In this document: positions 1,700-10,816 of the stretch, in pieces
Layout: every line of letters begins with the position of its first letter
Numbering within the stretch: position 1 is the stretch's first letter
Assembly: GCF_000025605.1 (NCBI RefSeq)
Contig: NC_013894.1
Coordinates: forward strand, 977,529-1,041,528
Direction: 5' to 3'
Length of the DNA: 64,000 nt
Source: Thermocrinis albus DSM 14484
GTDB taxonomy: Bacteria; Aquificota; Aquificia; Aquificales; Aquificaceae
The notes under the pieces: model-generated
Database searches by the model: none
The model's input: the letters and a program-made list of their open reading frames with translations, nothing else
Told to the model about the DNA's origin: nothing
Made by a program: the position numbers and the translations under genes

Positions 1700-1728
1700 A
1701 GATGAACATCCATTCATGGAGGTCTGTT

Positions 1729-2727
1729 ATGGTAAGGGAGCTACTGCTGGCTCACGGGAATGGCGGTGAAGAAACGTGGACCATCATAAAGGATCTGTTT
1801 CTCAAATACTTGGATGATCCTATACTTTCAAAACTTGAGGACGCAGCAGTTGTTCCCTTAGAAGGCCACATCGCTGTTACCACAGATGCCTTTACCGTTA
1901 GTCCCATCTTTTTCAGGGGTGGAGACATAGGAAAGCTGGCCGTATGTGGTACCGTCAACGATCTTGCCGCTATGGGTGCAAGGCCTATGTATATGACGGT
2001 GAGTTTCATACTGGAGGAAGGGATGTCTTTGGAAGATCTGGAGACTGTTGTTAGGAGTATGGGGGATACGGCCCGTAGTTTAGGTGTACGAGTGGTGGCG
2101 GGAGACACAAAGGTTGTGCCAAAGGGAACTGCCGATGGTGTCTTCATTGTCAGCACCGGTATAGGACGCGTTGTGTATCCCGGCCTCTCTTCCCACAACG
2201 TAAGGGATGGTGATATTATCATCGTCACAGGTACAATAGGTGATCACGGGGCATGCATACTTGCCGCCAGAGAGGGACTGGATTTCGAAACCCATCTGGA
2301 AAGTGACTGTGCTCCTCTCTGGGATATGGTGGAGGCTCTGTTGAAAGAAGGGGTGGAGATTCACGCTATGAGGGACCCTACTCGTGGTGGCCTCTCAGCT
2401 GTGTTACACGAATGGGCACGTGCCAGTGGTGTTTCCTTTGTGGTGGATGAACAGAGCGTACCTGTAAGGGAAGAGGTGAGGGGGCTGTGTGAGTTCCTGG
2501 GTCTAGAACCCTATCATCTTGCCTGCGAAGGTAGGATGGTGCTGGCTGTGGCGGAGGAGTCTGCTGAGAGGGTGTTGGAGATACTGCGGCAACATCCATT
2601 GGGTACCAATGCAGCCGTGATAGGAAGGGCTCAGAAAGGTAAGCCTCAGGTTCTTTTAAGAACAGCTTACGGCACTCATCGTTTTCTTGAACCTCCCATG
2701 GGTGAACTTTTACCGAGGATATGCTGA
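1729..2727 (+). CDS. hypE: HypE, carbamoyl dehydratase for [NiFe]-hydrogenase cyanide ligands
   Basis: HypE receives a carbamoyl group from HypF on its C-terminal cysteine and dehydrates it with ATP to a thiocyanate, the source of the CN ligands of the hydrogenase Fe. The protein has the PurM-like fold signature HGNGGEE near its start and ends in PRIC, the invariant C-terminal tetrapeptide with the acceptor cysteine. I take ATG 1729 as the start because GGAGGT sits 5 nt upstream and family members begin with a short MxRxxLLAHGNGG; an in-frame ATG at 1702 would add nine residues without a ribosome site. hypA starts one base after the stop. Confidence 0.95.
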   Translation: MVRELLLAHGNGGEETWTIIKDLFLKYLDDPILSKLEDAAVVPLEGHIAVTTDAFTVSPIFFRGGDIGKLAVCGTVNDLAAMGARPMYMTVSFILEEGMSLEDLETVVRSMGDTARSLGVRVVAGDTKVVPKGTADGVFIVSTGIGRVVYPGLSSHNVRDGDIIIVTGTIGDHGACILAAREGLDFETHLESDCAPLWDMVEALLKEGVEIHAMRDPTRGGLSAVLHEWARASGVSFVVDEQSVPVREEVRGLCEFLGLEPYHLACEGRMVLAVAEESAERVLEILRQHPLGTNAAVIGRAQKGKPQVLLRTAYGTHRFLEPPMGELLPRIC

Positions 2728-2728
2728 C

Positions 2729-3073
2729 ATGCATGAGATGTCTATAGTTCAAAACTTACTCCAGTTGGTGGAGATGTATGCGGAGAGGGAAGGTGCAAAA
2801 GATGTGAGGAGGATAGAGGTGGTGGTAGGGGTTCTGTCCGGTGTGGAGCCTCATCTTCTCAGAATAGCTTTCGACACTTTTAAGGAAGGAACTGTGGCAC
2901 AGAATGCTCAGTTAGATTTGGTGGTGGAAAAACTACGCCTGTGGTGTAACTCCTGCAACACCCAGGTGGAGAAAGAGGAGTTGGATATGATCTGCCCTCT
3001 GTGTGGTTCCGTTGATACACGTGTGGTGGGTGGTGATGAGTTACTTTTAAAAAGTATCGAGATGGAGGTGTAA
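2729..3073 (+). CDS. hypA: HypA, nickel insertion metallochaperone
   Basis: Nickel chaperone that works with HypB to insert Ni into the hydrogenase large subunit. It starts with the invariant MHE nickel-binding N-terminus, which fixes ATG 2729 as the start. The zinc-finger cysteines C73, C76, C89 and C92 (CNSC and CPLC) are intact. At 114 aa it has normal length. It sits between hypE and hypC with 1- and 3-nt gaps. hypB and hypF are not in this window. Confidence 0.96.
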   Translation: MHEMSIVQNLLQLVEMYAEREGAKDVRRIEVVVGVLSGVEPHLLRIAFDTFKEGTVAQNAQLDLVVEKLRLWCNSCNTQVEKEELDMICPLCGSVDTRVVGGDELLLKSIEMEV

Positions 3074-3076
3074 GGT

Positions 3077-3328
3077 ATGTGTCTTTCTATACCTTCCAAA
3101 GTGGTGGAGATACGAGAGGATAACACTGCGGTGGTGGAGGTTTTCGGTGTAAGGCGTGTGGTCTCTTTGGAGCTCATGCAAGAAGAGGTGCATGTGGGGG
3201 ACTGGCTTCTGATACACGTGGGGTTTGCTATCAATAAACTGAGTGAGGAGGAGGCTCTTCAGAGTCTGGAGCTCTTCGAAGAGATCCTTAAAGAGGAGGA
3301 AGAACTATGGCAACAGCCAGAGATGTAA
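3077..3328 (+). CDS. hypC: HypC, hydrogenase maturation chaperone
   Basis: Small chaperone (83 aa) that carries the Fe(CN)2CO unit with HypD and delivers it to the apo large subunit. It starts with MCLSIP; the N-terminal Cys2 is the essential iron ligand. The C-terminal tail is acidic (EEILKEEEELWQ). GAGGTG and the hypA stop lie just upstream. Its 3' end overlaps hypD by 22 nt, so the HypC-HypD partners are translationally coupled. Confidence 0.96.
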   Translation: MCLSIPSKVVEIREDNTAVVEVFGVRRVVSLELMQEEVHVGDWLLIHVGFAINKLSEEEALQSLELFEEILKEEEELWQQPEM

Positions 3329-4443
3329 TAGAGTCTTACAGAGATACAGAGAAGATTAAGCTTTACGAGAGGGCGATAAAGAGGGCTGTTGAGTCATTAG
3401 GAAGGGAAGTGAGGATAATGGAGTTCTGTGGAGGACACACCCACGCTATTATGAAGTATGGAATAGATCAGTTACTGGAGGGTTACGTCAGGTTCATACA
3501 TGGCCCCGGCTGTCCCGTCTGTGTTCTTCCTACCGGAAGAGTAGATATGGCCATAGAGTTGGCAAGAAACCCAGAGGTTATTCTGTGTACTTACGGTGAT
3601 GTGTTGCGCGTACCCGGGTCCCAGAGAAAGAGCCTTCTAAACGTAAGGGCAGAGGGAGGAGATGTTCGTATGCTTTACTCTTGTCTGGACGCCCTCAGGA
3701 TAGCTGAGGAAAACCCTTCAAAGCAGGTGATCTTCTTCGCTATAGGATTCGAAACCACTACACCCCAGACAGCTGTACTCCTTATGAAAGCCAAAGAGAG
3801 GGGTTTAAAGAACCTCACGGTGGTTAGTAACCACGTTATAACTCCTGCAGCTATACAGCACATACTGAACGCACCTGAAATCCGTGAGATAGGGAAAGTT
3901 CGTATAGATGCCTTCATAGGACCGGGACACGTCAGTGTGATTATAGGTAGCAAACCTTACGAGTACTTTGCTGAGGAATTTCTGAAGCCTGTGGTGATTT
4001 CGGGATTTGAGCCTTTGGACATCATGCAGTCCGTTTACATGATCGTCAGACAGTTGCGGGAAAAAAGGGCTCAAGTGGAGGTTCAGTACACACGTTTTGT
4101 GAGTAGAGAAGGTAACGTTAAAGCTCAGAAGTTGGTGGCAGAGGTGTTTGAACTGAGGAAAGAGTTTGAGTGGAGAGGTCTGGGTGTGGTACCCTACAGC
4201 TCCCTGAAGATAAAGAAGGATTATGCCCAGTACGATGCAGAAAGGCGCTTCCTTGTCTCACTTCCACCGCCGAAGGAGCATCCCGCCTGTATCTGCCCGA
4301 AGGTGATAAGAGGTGTAGCTGTACCTACCGAGTGTAAACTTTTTGGAACGGTGTGTACACCGTCCAACCCCATAGGATCCTGTATGGTATCCTCGGAAGG
4401 TGCATGCGCGGCCTATTACAAGTACAGACACGGGGGTCACTGA
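3307..4443 (+). CDS. hypD: HypD, Fe-S scaffold for Fe(CN)2CO assembly
   Basis: HypD carries a [4Fe-4S] cluster and is the scaffold on which the Fe(CN)2CO unit is built with HypC and HypE. The protein has the family motifs FCGGHTH (C41), GPGCPVC (C69, C72) and the C-terminal cluster-binding cysteines in ICPKV, PTECKLFGTVC and GSCMVSSEGAC. Its 378 aa is normal. The stop codon overlaps the hypX start (TGATG). Confidence 0.97.
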   Translation: MATARDVIESYRDTEKIKLYERAIKRAVESLGREVRIMEFCGGHTHAIMKYGIDQLLEGYVRFIHGPGCPVCVLPTGRVDMAIELARNPEVILCTYGDVLRVPGSQRKSLLNVRAEGGDVRMLYSCLDALRIAEENPSKQVIFFAIGFETTTPQTAVLLMKAKERGLKNLTVVSNHVITPAAIQHILNAPEIREIGKVRIDAFIGPGHVSVIIGSKPYEYFAEEFLKPVVISGFEPLDIMQSVYMIVRQLREKRAQVEVQYTRFVSREGNVKAQKLVAEVFELRKEFEWRGLGVVPYSSLKIKKDYAQYDAERRFLVSLPPPKEHPACICPKVIRGVAVPTECKLFGTVCTPSNPIGSCMVSSEGACAAYYKYRHGGH

Positions 4444-6125
4444 TGCGTATACTTTTTTACTGTCACAGGTTTAACTCCCTCTCCCAACGTCTTTACTGCG
4501 AGTTGGTAGACAGGGGACACGAGGTGTCTATAGAACTGGACGTACATCCAGATCTGATGATAGAGGCTGCGGAGCTTTATCAACCAGATCTTATAATAGC
4601 TCCCTTTCTGAAAAGAAAGGTACCTAAGGAGGTGTACGAGAACTATCTCACGCTGATAATACATCCTGGTCCACCCGGTGACAGAGGGCCATCTGCCCTT
4701 GACTGGGCTATTCTCAGGAGAGAAAGAAGGTGGGGTGTCACCCTTTTGGAAGCTACGGAGGAGTACGATGCGGGTGATGTGTGGGCTTACAGAACCTTCT
4801 CCATGAGGCCTGCCAGGAAGTCCAGCCTATACAGAAACGAAGTGACAGAGGGTGCGGTGGAGTGTGTGTTACAAGCCGTAACCATGTTGGAGGAGGGGAA
4901 AGTAACCAAAAAACCTCAGGAGTACGGTGTGTGGAATCCAAAGGTAGAGGTGGAGTGGAGGCGTATAAACTGGGAGAAGGACAACACGGAAAGTGTGTTA
5001 ACAAAGGTCTACGCCAGTGACGGACATCCAGGAGCACCGGCAGAACTCTTTGGAAGAGAGTTTCTCCTCTACAACGCCTTTCCCGAGAGCAAACTCAGAG
5101 GTGAGCCAGGAAGGATACTGGCGGTGAGGGATGAGGCTGTTTGTATTGCAACAACCGACGGCGCTGTATGGATAACTCACATGAGAGAAAAGAAAAGAGA
5201 TTCCATCAAACTGCCATCTGTAAGGGTTTTAGAACCCTTCCTGAGGGATGTTAAGGAGGATCCCATCGAACCCTGGGAAGATACAGAAGGAGAAACTTAC
5301 AGAGAGATACTTTACGAAGAGGAAAAGGGTGTAGGATACATACACTTTCCTTTCTACAACGGTGCTATGTCTACCGAGCAGTGTGAGAGACTTCTTAAGG
5401 TAATAAAGTACGCCAAGAAAAGGCCTATAAAAGCGCTCGTTCTTTTAGGTGGCGAGGACTTCTTTTCCAACGGGATGAACCTCAACACCATAGAGCAAGC
5501 GGAGAGTCCTGCCGATGAGTCGTGGCGGAACATAAACGCTATGGACGACGTATGCGAGGAGATCCTTACAGCCCTGGATATACTAACTGTTGCAGGACTG
5601 CGCGGTAATGCAGGTGCAGGGGGGGTATTCCTGGCCCTTACGTGCGATTGGGTCTTTGCACGGGATGGCGTTGTTTTAAACCCCCATTACAAAAACATAG
5701 GTAATCTTTACGGTTCTGAGTTTTGGACCTATACCCTTCCCAAACGTGTCGGTTGGGAGAAAGGAAGGCAGATCATGGAGAACAGGATGCCCATAAGTGC
5801 GAAGAGAGCAGCCCAGCTAGGGTTGATAGACGGCGTCCTTGGAAAGGATCATTCAGAGTTCTTAGGTCAACTGAAAGATCTGGTGACGAACTTTGTCCAT
5901 TCCGAAGCTTACCATCCTTTTATAGAAAGAAAGAGAAGAGAGAGACTAACCGATTGGTCTCAGAAACCCCTCTCTTCATACAGAACGGAGGAGTTGGAAA
6001 GGATGAAGATAAACTTCTACGGTTTTGACACCAGCTATCACATAGCACGTTACTACTTCGTAAGGAGAATACTACCTTTCCGTACACCTCCTTACCTAGC
6101 CATTCACAGAAGGCTCAGCACTTAA
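4443..6125 (+). CDS. hypX: HypX, CO-ligand-forming hydrogenase maturation protein
   Basis: Two-domain enzyme that makes the CO ligand of the hydrogenase iron from the formyl group of formyl-tetrahydrofolate; this role is established for aerobic hydrogen oxidisers including Aquifex. Residues about 1-270 form the formyltransferase-like part (HPGPPGDRGPSALDW near residue 75); about 290-540 form a crotonase-like part (GGEDFFSNGMNL, GNAGAGGVFLAL). I start it at ATG 4443, which overlaps the hypD stop; a start at 4353 would lie inside hypD and extend past the family N-terminus. Length is 560 aa. The 3' end overlaps the convergent tetR gene by 30 nt. Confidence 0.95.
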   Translation: MRILFYCHRFNSLSQRLYCELVDRGHEVSIELDVHPDLMIEAAELYQPDLIIAPFLKRKVPKEVYENYLTLIIHPGPPGDRGPSALDWAILRRERRWGVTLLEATEEYDAGDVWAYRTFSMRPARKSSLYRNEVTEGAVECVLQAVTMLEEGKVTKKPQEYGVWNPKVEVEWRRINWEKDNTESVLTKVYASDGHPGAPAELFGREFLLYNAFPESKLRGEPGRILAVRDEAVCIATTDGAVWITHMREKKRDSIKLPSVRVLEPFLRDVKEDPIEPWEDTEGETYREILYEEEKGVGYIHFPFYNGAMSTEQCERLLKVIKYAKKRPIKALVLLGGEDFFSNGMNLNTIEQAESPADESWRNINAMDDVCEEILTALDILTVAGLRGNAGAGGVFLALTCDWVFARDGVVLNPHYKNIGNLYGSEFWTYTLPKRVGWEKGRQIMENRMPISAKRAAQLGLIDGVLGKDHSEFLGQLKDLVTNFVHSEAYHPFIERKRRERLTDWSQKPLSSYRTEELERMKINFYGFDTSYHIARYYFVRRILPFRTPPYLAIHRRLST

Positions 6126-6707
6126 CGCCCTCCACAGGTTTTCCGTAAGTTCATCCACATAGTCCATCAGAGGCTTGTCCAACACACCCTCGTTGTTGAG
6201 GAACACCATACCTCCCAAAGGACCCATTACGGTGGTAAAGGCGGTGAAGAAACTCTGATTTCTGAAAACACCCTTCTCCACACCGTCACTTACCAATACC
6301 ATGATTTCTGTCACTACATCTCCTACGCACGTAAACCCCTCACACCCTTCTCTAAACACCTCTCTGTTGACCAAAAACACCCTCAGAAAGTAGTTAATAA
6401 GTTCAGGTTCCTTCAAAGCTATCTCAAAAAAACTCCTGACGAGCTCTCTGAGCTTCTCTTTAAAGGGAATATTTTTCTCGTTTATAACCTTTATCCTCTC
6501 TCCTACGATACGAGAAGTGGTGAGCATTATCTCCTTTGCCAGTTCTTCTTTGGACTCAAAGTAGTTGTAAAGGTTTCCTACGCTCATACCCAGAGCCTGG
6601 GCTATGTCAGGTATGGTGGTGTTGTAATATCCCTTCTCCGCAAAGAGCTTACAGGCAGTCCTTATTATCCGCATTCTATTCCTTTCTTTAAGTGCTTGTC
6701 TTGGCAT
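6096..6707 (-). CDS. TetR family transcriptional regulator
   Basis: DNA-binding regulator of 203 aa. The N-terminal ~60 residues are a typical TetR helix-turn-helix (TACKLFAEKGYYNTTIPDIAQ, recognition helix SVGNLYNYFESKEEL); the C-terminal ligand domain has no obvious metal-binding His/Cys cluster. It starts 15 nt after the nikO stop and so is probably the last gene of the nickel uptake operon. It may control the dyad at the nikK promoter, or a different target; nothing in the sequence decides this. Its end overlaps hypX by 30 nt. Confidence 0.85.
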   Translation of the reverse strand: MPRQALKERNRMRIIRTACKLFAEKGYYNTTIPDIAQALGMSVGNLYNYFESKEELAKEIMLTTSRIVGERIKVINEKNIPFKEKLRELVRSFFEIALKEPELINYFLRVFLVNREVFREGCEGFTCVGDVVTEIMVLVSDGVEKGVFRNQSFFTAFTTVMGPLGGMVFLNNEGVLDKPLMDYVDELTENLWRALSAEPSVNG

Positions 6708-6722
6708 ATTTTTAATTTTAAC

Positions 6723-7457
6723 TTACAGGGAATGGAAATGCCACTGGGATCCTGAGTGAGTGTGCATGAACCCTGCTTCCAGAAGCAGAGATGTGTCTTT
6801 GAGGAAGTTCTCTGGAGCACCGTCGTAGAGTAATCTCCCGTGGGGTGATAATACCACCAGTCTGTTTCCTAGTTCAGGTGCGAGGGATATGTGGTGAGTG
6901 GATATCACGCATGTAGCTTCAGTTTTCTGTATGATCTCTATAAGACGTCCCACCGATGGAAGGTCCATATGGGCTGTAGGTTCGTCCAGCAGAAGAATCT
7001 GGGGCTCTGCTGCCAACACACTGGCGAGGGCTACCCTCTGTTTCTGTCCTCCACTCAGTTTGTAAGGTGGAAGAGAAACAAGATCCTCTATAGCTAACTC
7101 CTTCAGCCAGTACATCACTTTTTCCTTTACTTCACTTTCTTTCAGGCCCTTTTTACGTAAAGAGTAAGCCACTTCATCGTAGACGGTGGGGTTGAAGAGC
7201 ATAACGTCCGGATTCTGAAAAAGCATAATGCTTTCCTTCCTTATATCCTTTATAGCGTCCTTCAGCTTCTTCCCTTTATAGAGAAATTCTCCAGAACTAG
7301 GATATATAAGAGCGTTGAGGAGTTTCAAGAGGGTTGTCTTTCCACTGCCATTTATTCCCAAAAGGACTACTTTTTCCCCCTTACCGATCTTTAAACTTAT
7401 ATCCTTTATAGCGATCCTATCTTGGTATTTAACGCTCACTTCTTTAAGTTCCATCAT
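6723..7457 (-). CDS. nikO: Nickel ECF transporter ATPase NikO (CbiO family)
   Basis: ATPase of an energy-coupling-factor importer for Ni2+ (or Co2+). Walker A is GINGSGKT (about 34-41), the signature is LSGGQKQR, Walker B LLLDEP, and the switch His lies in STHH. The C-terminus is His-rich (HTHSGSQWHFH), unusual for an ATPase and consistent with metal sensing or storage at the cytoplasmic face. It overlaps nikQ by 14 nt. Nickel rather than cobalt is inferred from the NikK/NikL proteins upstream and the hyp operon next door. Confidence 0.9.
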   Translation of the reverse strand: MMELKEVSVKYQDRIAIKDISLKIGKGEKVVLLGINGSGKTTLLKLLNALIYPSSGEFLYKGKKLKDAIKDIRKESIMLFQNPDVMLFNPTVYDEVAYSLRKKGLKESEVKEKVMYWLKELAIEDLVSLPPYKLSGGQKQRVALASVLAAEPQILLLDEPTAHMDLPSVGRLIEIIQKTEATCVISTHHISLAPELGNRLVVLSPHGRLLYDGAPENFLKDTSLLLEAGFMHTHSGSQWHFHSL

Positions 7458-7998
7458 CTTCTATAACCCCCCTCGAGCGCATGGCCTGGTGTACTTCCTC
7501 AGAAAGTCTCAGAGAAAGGTGGAAAAAGTATCCGCTCATGGAGAGAATAAGATTCTTTCTATCTCTCCAACTGTCCTTACCCATACTTCTGGAAATGTAA
7601 GCCTGGAAGAACTCCTCCATAGTTCTTTTGTAAAACTGAACATAGGTAAGTGTTACAGCTATGAGCATAGTGAGATCTCGCGAAAAGTCAAACACTTTGA
7701 GTAGATTTATGCGACTCATCACAGAGGAGCAGATCCATAAGATACAAAAACTCCGGGCAGGTAACAGTATCGTTGCATGAAAGTCCGGTGTTCCTTTTAC
7801 ATACTGAAGTACCGTGTAGGGAAGTACGAGGAGTAAGGAGAAAAGGGCAGAGTATACGGGGATCTTTAGCACCGGTGTGTTTTTAAGGGAAGCTATGAGA
7901 AACAGGGCCATAGTTCCCAAAAGGATCCTTATGTCGGACACGAAGGAGATACCCACTATGAGTCCACAGCATAACAAAAAGAGGACTTTATCCCTCAT
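7444..7998 (-). CDS. nikQ: Nickel ECF transporter transmembrane protein NikQ (CbiQ family)
   Basis: T-component membrane protein that couples the ATPase to the metal-binding NikM. It is 184 aa, shorter than most CbiQ proteins (~220-260 aa), with hydrophobic helices in the first ~115 residues and the cytoplasmic coupling motif region with the conserved Ala-Arg-Gly-type box seen as QAMRSRGV near the C-terminus. It overlaps nikM by 11 nt and nikO by 14 nt. Confidence 0.82.
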   Translation of the reverse strand: MRDKVLFLLCCGLIVGISFVSDIRILLGTMALFLIASLKNTPVLKIPVYSALFSLLLVLPYTVLQYVKGTPDFHATILLPARSFCILWICSSVMSRINLLKVFDFSRDLTMLIAVTLTYVQFYKRTMEEFFQAYISRSMGKDSWRDRKNLILSMSGYFFHLSLRLSEEVHQAMRSRGVIEDDGT

Positions 7999-8623
7999 AC
8001 TTTACCCTCCGGATTATCAACAAGGTGTAGAGGCTTTCCAGTAGGCCAGCCAACGCATGGGGAACTATAAGGGCGGGTAAGGTGACACTAAGGGGATAAG
8101 GGAAGTAAAGGGGCTGTCCCGACGCAGACCTGAAGAGGATAGGATGTATTCCTAAAACAAGACCTATCAGTATCGCTGGAACGAGTACAGAAAGGTAAGC
8201 ACTTATCAGTACAGCCGGAGTGTCTCCCCACATCTTCTGGATGATTCTGTGAACATGGTAGGCCGTTTGCCCTCCTATAAACCCCATAGCTAAGAGGTTT
8301 ATGGGTAGTGTAGTGACTCCCCCCACACCCAAGAGGAAGGCTTGCAGAAATAGGATGATGGTGGTGCATACAAAAGCTACCGCAGGTCCCATGAGAATAG
8401 ACATAACCGCTATACCCTCCAAGTGTACGCTGGTACCACCAGGTAGAGGTAAAGTTATGGACATAAGTGAGAAGGAAAAGGCGGAAAGAAGAGCTAAGAG
8501 GGGCATACTCTTACTTCCCACCCTCTTTTTAAACTCCTTCATATACTTGATAAAGAGGGTTATACTGACACCGTAAGCGGGTACATATACGTGAGGAGCA
8601 ACGAAACCATCCGGTATGTGCAT
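7988..8623 (-). CDS. nikM: Nickel ECF transporter substrate-binding membrane protein NikM
   Basis: The S-component that binds Ni2+ and sets specificity. The N-terminus MHIPDGF is the hallmark of NikM/CbiM: the free amino group, His2 and a later His form the square-planar metal site. It is 211 aa with about six to seven membrane helices and has HVHR and PHALAG His residues further on. Start ATG 8623 follows a GGAGGG site. It is preceded in the operon by an outer-membrane protein gene, an uncommon arrangement. Confidence 0.92.
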   Translation of the reverse strand: MHIPDGFVAPHVYVPAYGVSITLFIKYMKEFKKRVGSKSMPLLALLSAFSFSLMSITLPLPGGTSVHLEGIAVMSILMGPAVAFVCTTIILFLQAFLLGVGGVTTLPINLLAMGFIGGQTAYHVHRIIQKMWGDTPAVLISAYLSVLVPAILIGLVLGIHPILFRSASGQPLYFPYPLSVTLPALIVPHALAGLLESLYTLLIIRRVKYEG

Positions 8624-8633
8624 TCCATCCCTC

Positions 8634-9677
8634 CTAAAAGAGGTAGCTGAGAGTTAGAATAAGGCGGTACTTCTCCTTTCCTTCAGCACCCTGCTGCTGA
8701 TTCTCTTCGTTGAGTCTCTTCCAAAGGGGAACTTTTAGACCTACACCCATGGACGTACTTTTGTAGTAAAGCCTTGTACCCAGAACCCCGTAAATTATCT
8801 TACCACCAGAGCCTTCAAGTTTCACGCCATCTTCTTTATCCCTCTGGTTGTATTGAAAGTTAGCCTCTAAGAGCAAGTCTGCACGGAACTTCTTTTCCAT
8901 ATTTGTGTATAGTCTGTAGGCTAACGCTGCGTTGAATCTGAATTCATCACCAAACTTATACTTTTTTCTAGGTGAATCAGGAGTATCTCTAAAGTTATAA
9001 GTATGCTCCAGGAACTTTAGGTAGTTGGTGTCAAAAACTAAGGTAAGGGCTGGAAAGCTAACCAACTGTTTTGTAGAAGTAAACCCAACGGTAAAGGCAG
9101 GTTTTCCAAAACCAGTGGACATATCAGGTTCAAACTCACCTTTTGGATCCCTTGCTCTATCGTACTTGTTAGGGTTTCCGGTAGGTATAGATACACCTCC
9201 GTATATGGTAAAATGCCAGTCCATAAGGTCGTCAAGACTTTCGTTCTTAGGGATCAGCTTAAAACCTCTATCGTACTTAAAACCCAACACAGCCATAAGG
9301 GATATATCCGCAAATCCAGAGTTGGTATAGGAGTACTGTCCTTTTGTGGGGTCGTTGTCTATGGACTTGAGTTCAGTCTTTACATAATAAGGGGTAAAAA
9401 GGTAAACAGAAAGCCAAGGTTTCAATCCGTAGCCTATACCGTACGTGAAAAAGTTGTAGGTATCTTTCTGGTCTGGGAACTCCTGAAAAGAGAACTTTTT
9501 CCACCTCACATGATCCAACTTTACATAAAAGAGCCAACTACCTTCAGGCAGAGTTGCTGAACTTGATGTTTCTAAGGGGGCTCCAGGACCTTCAAGGCCG
9601 GCAGCACCCAACGTAGCAACTCCGTGATGAGCCAAAGCGGTACCACATGTGAGGAACATCAAGAGGGTCTTTCTCAC
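8634..9677 (-). CDS. Putative outer-membrane beta-barrel of the nickel operon
   Basis: A 347-aa protein with a signal peptide (KTLLMFLTCGTALA) followed at once by a His-His pair, then many alternating amphipathic strands ending in aromatic residues, and a C-terminal LTLSYLF that matches the terminal strand signal of outer-membrane barrels. The long N-terminal extension of the frame to 9716 is unlikely; GTG 9677 has GGAGGAG just upstream and overlaps the end region of nikL. Its position between nikL and nikM suggests a nickel channel across the outer membrane. I know no named family assignment for it with certainty; it may belong to the large class of MetA-like barrels. Confidence 0.7.
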   Translation of the reverse strand: MRKTLLMFLTCGTALAHHGVATLGAAGLEGPGAPLETSSSATLPEGSWLFYVKLDHVRWKKFSFQEFPDQKDTYNFFTYGIGYGLKPWLSVYLFTPYYVKTELKSIDNDPTKGQYSYTNSGFADISLMAVLGFKYDRGFKLIPKNESLDDLMDWHFTIYGGVSIPTGNPNKYDRARDPKGEFEPDMSTGFGKPAFTVGFTSTKQLVSFPALTLVFDTNYLKFLEHTYNFRDTPDSPRKKYKFGDEFRFNAALAYRLYTNMEKKFRADLLLEANFQYNQRDKEDGVKLEGSGGKIIYGVLGTRLYYKSTSMGVGLKVPLWKRLNEENQQQGAEGKEKYRLILTLSYLF

Positions 9678-9679
9678 GA

Positions 9680-10099
9680 CTATCTCCTCCTTACGTAGAT
9701 TTGGTATAGACCCCAAATACCTATGAGTAGGGACACACCTGTCAGTACCTTTGAGTACCTTTCGTATAAACTCACCTTTTCCACAGCACCCACCTCTTTC
9801 ACCTCAATGTCCACACGTGCACCGTGACCATCCTCCGAGTAGGTACTCACTCTCCACACACCCGGTGTGGATGGACAAAAGACCACTCTCCCTAAGGCAT
9901 CCGTCCTACCTATCTGAAAAGGTACCTGACTTCTTTCACTGAAGACTTTGTAGCTTTCGTAAGAAAAGGGCGTCCCATCGGGGAAGAAAAAGCGCACCAC
10001 CGCACATTTACCTTCCCAGTTCACCGTATGCTGAACATCGTGAGCCAAAACTACAGAAGATAACAGGAGCAGAAGTATCTCAATGTATCTCAAAAACAA
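9680..10099 (-). CDS. nikL: NikL-like periplasmic/membrane accessory protein
   Basis: A 139-aa protein: signal peptide to about residue 19 with mature N-terminal HDVQH, a small beta-sandwich domain of carboxypeptidase-regulatory type, and one C-terminal membrane helix (about 115-134) followed by YVRRR. This matches NikL, the accessory subunit found with NikM in proteobacterial nickel ECF systems. The start is TTG 10099 with GGAGG 6 nt upstream, inside the end of nikK (20-nt overlap). The assignment rests on topology and gene order more than on motifs. Confidence 0.72.
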   Translation of the reverse strand: MFLRYIEILLLLLSSVVLAHDVQHTVNWEGKCAVVRFFFPDGTPFSYESYKVFSERSQVPFQIGRTDALGRVVFCPSTPGVWRVSTYSEDGHGARVDIEVKEVGAVEKVSLYERYSKVLTGVSLLIGIWGLYQIYVRRR

Positions 10100-10751
10100 G
10101 GGTCGCCTCCCTTATGATGTAATCAGCCTTCTTACCATCCCCCATCTCTTTCAGGCTTGTTTCCACTACGTTTAATCCCTTCTCCTTCAAACGTATGTTT
10201 ATCCTTCCCCTGTCGTCTGTTGTGCCCACCACGTGACCGTTGTAACTGACAGGCACATTGGCCAGCGGCCTACCTCTGTAGGTTACCAGAAATGTGAGTT
10301 TTTCTCCCACCTTTGCCTTTGTAAAGTCATCCAGTGGTGTTATCTCCAGTTCTTGCCCTATGGGTTTTGGCACCCAAAGGTCCAGACGCTTTACGTAACC
10401 GTAAGATGCCCAACTTTCTATTGGTTCTTTCACCTCATCCTTGGCAGCTTTCTTTAAACCTTCCGTCGTTTTGGTCCAGTAGCCTTCCCACAGAGTGGCA
10501 ACGGCCACCTTGCAGTTTCCCTTTATTCTGAGAGGGTAGGTGTGGATTACGGAGATCTTCTGTTGGTATCCCTCGGCGTCGTAACAGGCTACATGCTTCA
10601 CCCAAGAGGGCTCGTACCTGACGTAACGCTCCTCTCCGGGCGCTGGTTTTAGGTGTCCGTAGTGGAGAAGGAGAGTGTCCCCCTCTCGCTCCATCCAAAG
10701 CTGATGGGAGAAGGCGCTAACTGTCAGTGCCAATGGCAGTATCCATCGCAT
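10080..10751 (-). CDS. nikK: NikK-like periplasmic protein (DUF4198 type)
   Basis: A 223-aa protein with a signal peptide (cleavage near AFSHQLW) and the HxxW start of the mature chain, which is typical of DUF4198/NikK proteins thought to bind Ni2+ in the periplasm. The C-terminal half has the GRPLANVPVSYNG segment followed by TDDRGRINI, an Ig-like fold signature. It is the first gene of the nickel operon: ATG 10751 follows AGGAGGTGGG, and a strong promoter with a dyad operator lies directly upstream. Confidence 0.78.
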   Translation of the reverse strand: MRWILPLALTVSAFSHQLWMEREGDTLLLHYGHLKPAPGEERYVRYEPSWVKHVACYDAEGYQQKISVIHTYPLRIKGNCKVAVATLWEGYWTKTTEGLKKAAKDEVKEPIESWASYGYVKRLDLWVPKPIGQELEITPLDDFTKAKVGEKLTFLVTYRGRPLANVPVSYNGHVVGTTDDRGRINIRLKEKGLNVVETSLKEMGDGKKADYIIREATLVFEIH

Positions 10752-10762
10752 GTCCCACCTCC

Positions 10763-10816
10763 TAATATTACTTATAACACAAAAGTAATATTAATAAAAG
10801 ATCATTCATAAGTCAA
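10763..10816 (-). promoter_or_regulatory. nik operon promoter with 11-bp inverted-repeat operator
   Basis: On the minus strand TTGACT (10816-10811) and TAATAT (10793-10788) are 17 bp apart, a good sigma-70 promoter. The -10 is part of a perfect inverted repeat, TAATATTACTT (10763-10773) and AAGTAATATTA (10783-10793), separated by 9 nt. The dyad covers the -10 and the probable transcription start, 12 nt before the nikK start codon, the place where a repressor would act. NikR, Fur-family and TetR proteins can all bind sites of this general size; the binder is not determined. Confidence 0.85.

Follow-up and report, generated by a model that had tools for sequence, protein, structure and literature searches.

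Little is understood of the TonB-independent passage of scarce transition metals through the outer membrane; the dedicated nickel routes that the accessible text of PMC11247825 names are TonB-dependent receptors. The question is raised by the window, the 64,000-nucleotide stretch of Thermocrinis albus DNA analysed here, whose host is a heat-loving, hydrogen-eating bacterium and in which a gene for a predicted outer-membrane barrel lies inside a nickel ECF operon. Is this barrel the outer-membrane step of nickel uptake? The presence of the barrel gene within the nickel pump cluster of several phyla suggests a dedicated nickel doorway through the outer membrane, and we put at about 0.7 the probability that the gene encodes a dedicated outer-membrane channel, a 12-stranded barrel of the COG4313 type, of NikKLMQO nickel uptake that is co-transcribed under a NikR-type operator.

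Layout and control of the operon

From open reading frames and profile matches, the operon runs on the minus strand in the order nikK-nikL-barrel-nikM-nikQ-nikO (window 6723-10751), with the NikKMLQO gene set (nikK, nikL, nikM, nikQ and nikO) complete in the window and nikN absent from it. By their coordinates, nikK and nikL overlap by 20 nt, nikL and the barrel gene are separated by 2 nt and the barrel gene and nikM by 10 nt, while nikM/nikQ and nikQ/nikO overlap by 11 and 14 nt, respectively; the order and the junctions of 20 nt or less given in the original prediction are thus borne out by gene calls, profiles and coordinates. The features of the locus are as follows.

10765..10791, no strand assigned: NikR-type operator (ATATTAC-N13-GTAATAT) lying 13 nt before the start codon of nikK; binding predicted from sequence
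10080..10751, minus strand: nikK, periplasmic component (DUF4198); PF10670 E 2e-15; predicted mature start is His
9680..10099, minus strand: nikL, membrane-anchored periplasmic component; NCBIfam NikL NF058648 E 5e-14, under the curated cut-off; predicted mature start is His
8634..9677, minus strand: barrel gene, COG4313 / PF13557 family; 347 aa, GTG start; PF13557 match and AlphaFold2 model
9630..9677, minus strand: predicted signal peptide of the barrel, 16 residues ending ALA (cleavage ALA/HHG), from sequence; the Ala before HHG is invariant in 27 aligned Aquificota proteins
9540..9629, minus strand: mature N-terminal segment of the barrel, HHGVATLGAAGLEGPGAPLETSSSATLPEG, preceding the first strand; near-invariant in 27 Aquificota proteins and 77 relatives
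7988..8623, minus strand: nikM, substrate-specific S component (beginning MHIPDGF); PF01891 CbiM E 1e-45
7444..7998, minus strand: nikQ, T component; CbiQ TIGR02454 E 1.6e-4, under the cut-off and weak alone, the gene being identified mainly by synteny and by an iterated profile that recovers nikQ in relatives
6723..7457, minus strand: nikO, ECF ATPase with a His-rich tail; PF00005 E 3e-32; TIGR04521 E 5e-54, the ECF ATPase model scores staying under those models' cut-offs
6096..6707, minus strand: TetR-family regulator, 15 nt past nikO; PF00440 E 1e-17
4353..6125, plus strand: hoxX-like hydrogenase maturation gene, a convergent neighbour outside the operon; PF02911 and PF00378 domains
3307..4443, plus strand: hypD, context; TIGR00075 494 bits
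1702..2727, plus strand: hypE, context; TIGR02124 460 bits

With hypE, hypD and the hoxX-like gene at 1702-6125 convergent to it, the operon has [NiFe]-hydrogenase maturation genes as its neighbours. The TetR gene is possibly the last of the nik transcription unit, a related gene being present at 5 of 80 relative loci (the best 80 of 99 relatives), and its end overlaps that of the convergent hoxX-like gene by ~30 nt. The His-rich C-terminal tail of the window NikO reads MHTHSGSQWHFHSL and is longer still in the NikO of genome G100, at whose locus the order is nikK-barrel-nikL-nikM, with nikR, hypB and a TetR gene past nikO. Comparisons with PHROGs and with plasmids gave no matches.

The window holds no Rfam match at the gathering threshold, so that control of the operon is not explained by any curated riboswitch family. 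The predicted operator, by contrast, is the sole perfect match to RTRTTAC-N13-GTAAYAY both in the window, where 0.01 were expected, and in the 1.5 Mb genome. Its half-site ATATTAC departs at two positions from GTGTTAC, GTGTTAC-[N13/14]-GTAACAC being the NikR signal described for delta-proteobacterial nik operons in PMC545781, where nikK and nikL are also named. That published consensus stands letter for letter upstream in two relatives (L116 and L119). Across 88 distinct upstream regions, left after one N-containing region, duplicates and short regions had been dropped, 22 score 13 or 14 of 14 against the pattern (shuffle mean 0.1) and the other 66 fall below 13 of 14; when spacers of 6 to 20 were compared, 13 alone stood out. 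As the pattern was partly shaped by the window's own site, these shuffle and spacer controls weigh more than the raw count.

Both features of a NikR regulon are therefore present, namely a NikR gene in the window's genome (G000:C1:1425575-1425976) and an inverted repeat with a 13-nt spacer at the promoter. Among the best 80 of the 99 relatives, nikR occurs at 37 loci, and at least one of nikR, a hyp gene and a hydrogenase small-subunit gene at 47, both counts being lower bounds because many flanks are short. The NikR-type operator, the NikR gene and the nikR, hyp and hydrogenase neighbours together support the predicted nickel specificity. A cobalt reading of the window operon is countered by the NikR-type control and the hyp neighbours; a few NikK1ML1QO operons lie near B12 genes (PMC2667541), and cobalt may be the substrate of some family members.

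Predicted fold and N-terminus of the barrel

PF13557 is the sole domain matched by the barrel protein (27.5 bits, the cut-off being 22, and 26.1 bits when the genome was searched), the TonB plug PF07715 giving no match in it. Searches of PDB sequences with the window protein and with a 78-row profile returned nothing, and only fold comparison succeeded. From an input alignment that combines the window protein with 77 relatives, AlphaFold2 builds an all-beta model (pLDDT 88.5, pTM 0.86) that has 12 strands, provided that E98-106 and E109-119 are counted as one bulged strand. Among PDB entries, Foldseek ranks FapF (E 6.5e-13) and the COG4313 channel from Pseudomonas putida F1 highest, and the top VIA-align match is 4rl8 (Pput2725), with a Z of 25.5, an rmsd of 2.6 and ~15% identity over 257 aligned residues. 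The 4rl8 alignment covers model residues 1-331, yet pLDDT is only 55-64 across residues 1-20. In the alignment with the 77 relatives, P149, T150 and G151 of the window protein are each kept at 90% or more.

The predicted mature protein starts HHGVATLGAAGLEGPGAP, that is, with His-His-Gly. HHG directly follows the predicted signal peptide in all 27 uncut Aquificota barrels and stands at the signal-peptide junction in 77 of 80 relatives (the best 80 of 99), the remaining three being unread at HHG, one because an upstream HHG was picked (L078) and two because they are cut or frameshifted (L086, L145). The same three, mis-picked in its start or incomplete, are omitted from the alignment of 77 relatives; its rows were trimmed at HHG, which makes H1-H2-G3 invariant there by construction, so that independent support comes from the 27 of 27 uncut proteins and the 77 of 80 junctions.

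Histidine also leads the exported partners. By a strict signal-cleavage pattern, mature NikK starts with His in 79 of 102 cases and mature NikL in 82 of 101, and 15 exceptions viewed for each gene also seem by eye to start with His after cleavage. The window NikM begins Met-His, and we take Met1 and His2 of NikM to bind nickel. The His-first NikK, NikL and barrel, together with the Met-His of NikM, suggest a series of N-terminal ligands along which nickel could be passed through the periplasm.

In Pput2725, also a 12-stranded barrel, the first 14 residues close off the periplasmic side of the lumen (PMC4493636), and FapF offers a precedent for gating from that side (PMC5557850). By analogy, the invariant 28-30-residue N-terminus of the nik barrel, with His1-His2, is a candidate lumenal gate. 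The original prediction had called the protein an outer-membrane barrel that starts with His-His and lacks a TonB plug. Its barrel is upheld by the predicted 12-stranded fold (the model confidence and the 4rl8 match above), for which a barrel prediction had been proposed as the check, and its His-His start by a predicted cleavage site that is near-invariant among relatives. The absence of a plug stands as far as PF07715 is concerned, but the closest solved relatives are self-occluded by an N-terminal segment or plug, and such a gate is a candidate here.

Linkage of the barrel to nickel genes

A profile search found barrel matches in 30 of 136 Aquificota genomes. At the 30 loci, nikK and/or nikL adjoins the barrel in 29 and nikM in 27. 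CbiM is present in 69 of the 136 genomes, 29 of which are among the 30 barrel carriers; the exception is G002, the only Aquificota genome with barrel pieces in which CbiM was not found, where the pieces lie on two contigs with a short nikK-like ORF nearby, and where decay of the barrel accompanies loss of nikM. In G091 and G092, the genes next after nikK-nikL-barrel are hypA, one resembling a nuclease gene, and hypF, and CbiM is elsewhere in the genome; upstream of nikK-nikL-barrel, both loci encode a TonB-dependent receptor as well as a ferredoxin-type membrane protein.

Beyond this phylum, a scan of 84,980 species genomes found 99 relatives, of which the best 80 were kept, the loci being chosen by two peptide patterns so that distant subfamilies are unsampled. 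Most of the 80 lie outside Aquificota, in Beta- and Gammaproteobacteria, Campylobacterota, WOR-3, Gemmatimonadota, Latescibacterota and others (depositors' taxonomy). By profiles built in the analysis, nikM follows the barrel on the same strand in 78 of these 80, and the full nikK-nikL-barrel-nikM-nikQ-nikO arrangement is the commonest (60/80); such recurrence of one gene order across phyla makes insertion of the barrel more than chance. The barrel of a Thermocrinis MAG is 83% identical to that of the window. Two checks were made with profiles, independently of the peptide patterns. In the order of Rhodocyclus purpureus (150 genomes) there are seven profile matches, four at 444-503 bits, in which nikM and the barrel are 7-73 bases apart, and three at 32-40 bits; in Campylobacterota (200 genomes) all six matches (397-511 bits) have CbiM 5-21 bases away. 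Wherever copy number was examined, the barrel is single-copy per genome. The neighbourhood survey that had been proposed as a check of the original prediction thus places close homologues nearly always in nickel ECF operons rather than in unrelated contexts.

Over 57 loci, the barrel is as conserved as NikM and NikO: mean pairwise identity is 54% for the barrel, a figure biased upward since the loci were picked by the barrel, 52% for NikM and 54% for NikO. The mirror-tree correlation of the barrel with nikM is 0.71 (57 loci), no higher than for other gene pairs, and so adds nothing beyond shared ancestry.

The linkage is not universal. In the Rhodocyclus-order set, G157 has nikK, L, M, Q and O and a NikR-like gene without the barrel, and in five further genomes of that order with strong CbiM loci (G277, G270, G199, G254, G282) nikK and nikL were not seen. 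G049, its cluster otherwise complete, retains only a 107-codon barrel remnant from which a large internal stretch is deleted, and in one Hydrogenothermaceae MAG (loci L028 and L145) the barrel frame is broken with the nik genes otherwise present; the deletion and the frame break may be real changes or assembly errors. In Aquificota, locus L067 of family f5 reads nikK-nikM-nikL-nikQ-nikO and lacks the COG4313 barrel. Diverging from its nikK is a different porin-like gene (L067:5697-7043, plus strand; 448 aa, with a coiled-coil head), with ~49% identical homologues at two further f5 loci (L045, L060); here an outer-membrane protein may have been recruited independently. That every nikKL operon carries the barrel is accordingly rejected, on G157 and the f5 loci.

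The three weak matches of the Rhodocyclus order (L162-L164) adjoin what, read from the sequence and not by profile, appear to be HMA-domain and copper-ATPase or CzcA-like pump genes. Since they have neither nik genes nor HHG, we reject the view that all PF13557 proteins near metal genes are alike; judged by sequence, the nik barrels are a discrete subfamily.

Proposed role, alternatives and known systems

Under our main reading, nickel shortage would cause NikR to release the operon, so that the barrel is made together with the pump. Ni(II), free or as a small complex, would cross the barrel by diffusion and meet His1-His2-Gly3 at or within the lumen's opening to the periplasm, a position taken by homology with Pput2725. 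Nickel would then be handed on to the His-first mature ends of NikL and NikK and from there to NikM, operated by NikQ together with the ATPase NikO. Removal of nickel by the ATP-driven pump, and not TonB, would supply the driving force. Co-transcription, nickel permeation, N-terminal gating, hand-over and TonB-independence are what we infer from the evidence above, as is the role of the N-terminal histidines. The original prediction of a complete trans-envelope nickel route not dependent on TonB is therefore supported in part, through the predicted fold and the nickel linkage, while passage of nickel, completeness of the route and freedom from TonB are putative. The genome encodes one plug-bearing TonB-dependent receptor (L170:4798-7454), with a TonB-like gene directly downstream and away from the nickel genes. 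A fuller version of the scheme is tentative, and we would sooner bet against it: a trans-envelope nickel relay whose exported members are all His-first, in which HHG would be a nickel-actuated gate of the lumen and nickel would move from the barrel's free amino terminus and imidazoles, via the N-terminal histidines of NikL and NikK, to NikM at Met1-His2, the ECF ATPase providing the pull independently of TonB. If true, the relay would define a class of metal-gated outer-membrane channel.

Counting against the channel reading, NikKMLQO operates without the barrel elsewhere (G157, G049) and most CbiM-bearing genomes lack it, both genes being present in 29 of 69 CbiM-bearing genomes of Aquificota and 6 of 57 of Campylobacterota. 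The operator pattern also falls short of 13 of 14 in the majority of upstream regions (66 of 88), and the lumenal placing of the N-terminus is of low confidence in the model. The properties of the structural relatives also bear on what the barrel admits. At low voltage Pput2725 is almost shut, and hydrophobic substrates, rather than a channel for hydrophilic solutes, are what its authors argue for (PMC4493636). As Pput2725 conducts only at high voltage, the nik barrel would either be opened by metal or a partner, or carry a nickel complex. In the latter direction lies an alternative that we consider unlikely, though worth keeping in mind, in which the barrel admits an amphipathic nickel complex or small metallophore instead of Ni(II) itself and the histidines then take the metal off the complex or stabilise it. 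Detergent binding is known from COG4313 relatives, which have been proposed to take up hydrophobic compounds (PMC4493636), and the PTG extracellular loop motif common to three COG4313 proteins is kept here as P149-T150-G151; no chelator biosynthesis genes, however, were identified in the operon or in the neighbours viewed, which were not exhaustively annotated.

That FapF, a gated polypeptide exporter that secretes FapC (PMC5557850), is the top Foldseek match raises the further idea that the barrel is a structural or secretion partner holding or exporting NikK, NikL or another peptide. FapF depends on some 80 periplasmic residues at its N-terminus that include a coiled coil (PMC5557850), a region absent from the nik barrel, and no gene for a small secreted substrate was seen between the six nik genes, the only recurrent cluster parts scored, so that we give this idea very little weight. 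Least probable of all, in our view, is a general small porin that sits in the operon by chance and serves bulk permeability: the occurrence of PF13557 members at other metal loci (L162-L164) does mean that the family is not nickel-only, but the cross-phylum nik linkage, the single copy per genome where examined, the joint decay in G002 and the NikR-type operator all speak against it. A dedicated nickel channel remains our preferred reading. It provides a function hypothesis for a channel family now annotated 'phenol degradation', with a conserved N-terminal His motif that is open to mutation, and the single-copy barrel that Aquificota, Campylobacterota and Proteobacteria carry in a nickel ECF operon is a genetically testable case.

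A literature search, with many subscription papers outside its reach, found no description of a nik-operon barrel; the accessible parts of PMC2667541, PMC545781 and PMC11247825 do not mention one, and the words 'outer membrane' are absent from that of PMC2667541. With the NikKMLQO transporters described there (PMC545781, PMC2667541) the window operon shares nikK/L/M/Q/O, NikR-type control, a hydrogenase context and the lack of nikN; it differs in the outer-membrane barrel gene between nikL and nikM, which goes unmentioned in the available text of both papers.

Among outer-membrane proteins, the closest in form are the COG4313 / PF13557 channels (Pput2725, TcpY, SphA), which share the 12-stranded barrel, a segment before strand 1, the PTG loop motif (Pro-Thr-Gly 119-121 is among the residues common to three COG4313 proteins in loops L2-L4; PMC4493636) and a similar length. 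In contrast to these channels, which are encoded with aromatic or sphingosine genes, the nik barrel has a nickel operon with NikR-type control and an invariant HHG, and is only ~15% identical to 4rl8. FapF belongs to the same barrel class and is likewise gated from the periplasmic side, as the nik barrel may be, but is a trimeric polypeptide exporter with an N-terminal coiled-coil domain. The TonB-dependent nickel receptors FrpB4, FecA3, CntO and NikH (PMC11247825) also provide a dedicated outer-membrane nickel step; compared with them, the nik barrel has no plug, is about half the size, forms a different barrel and has no linkage to TonB. The FUR-controlled porins of Geobacter and Desulfuromonas, one of them by feoAB (PMC545781), provide a further case of a porin encoded with an inner-membrane metal importer, although those serve iron, belong to other families (OprB, phosphate-selective) and, as reported there, have a narrow distribution.
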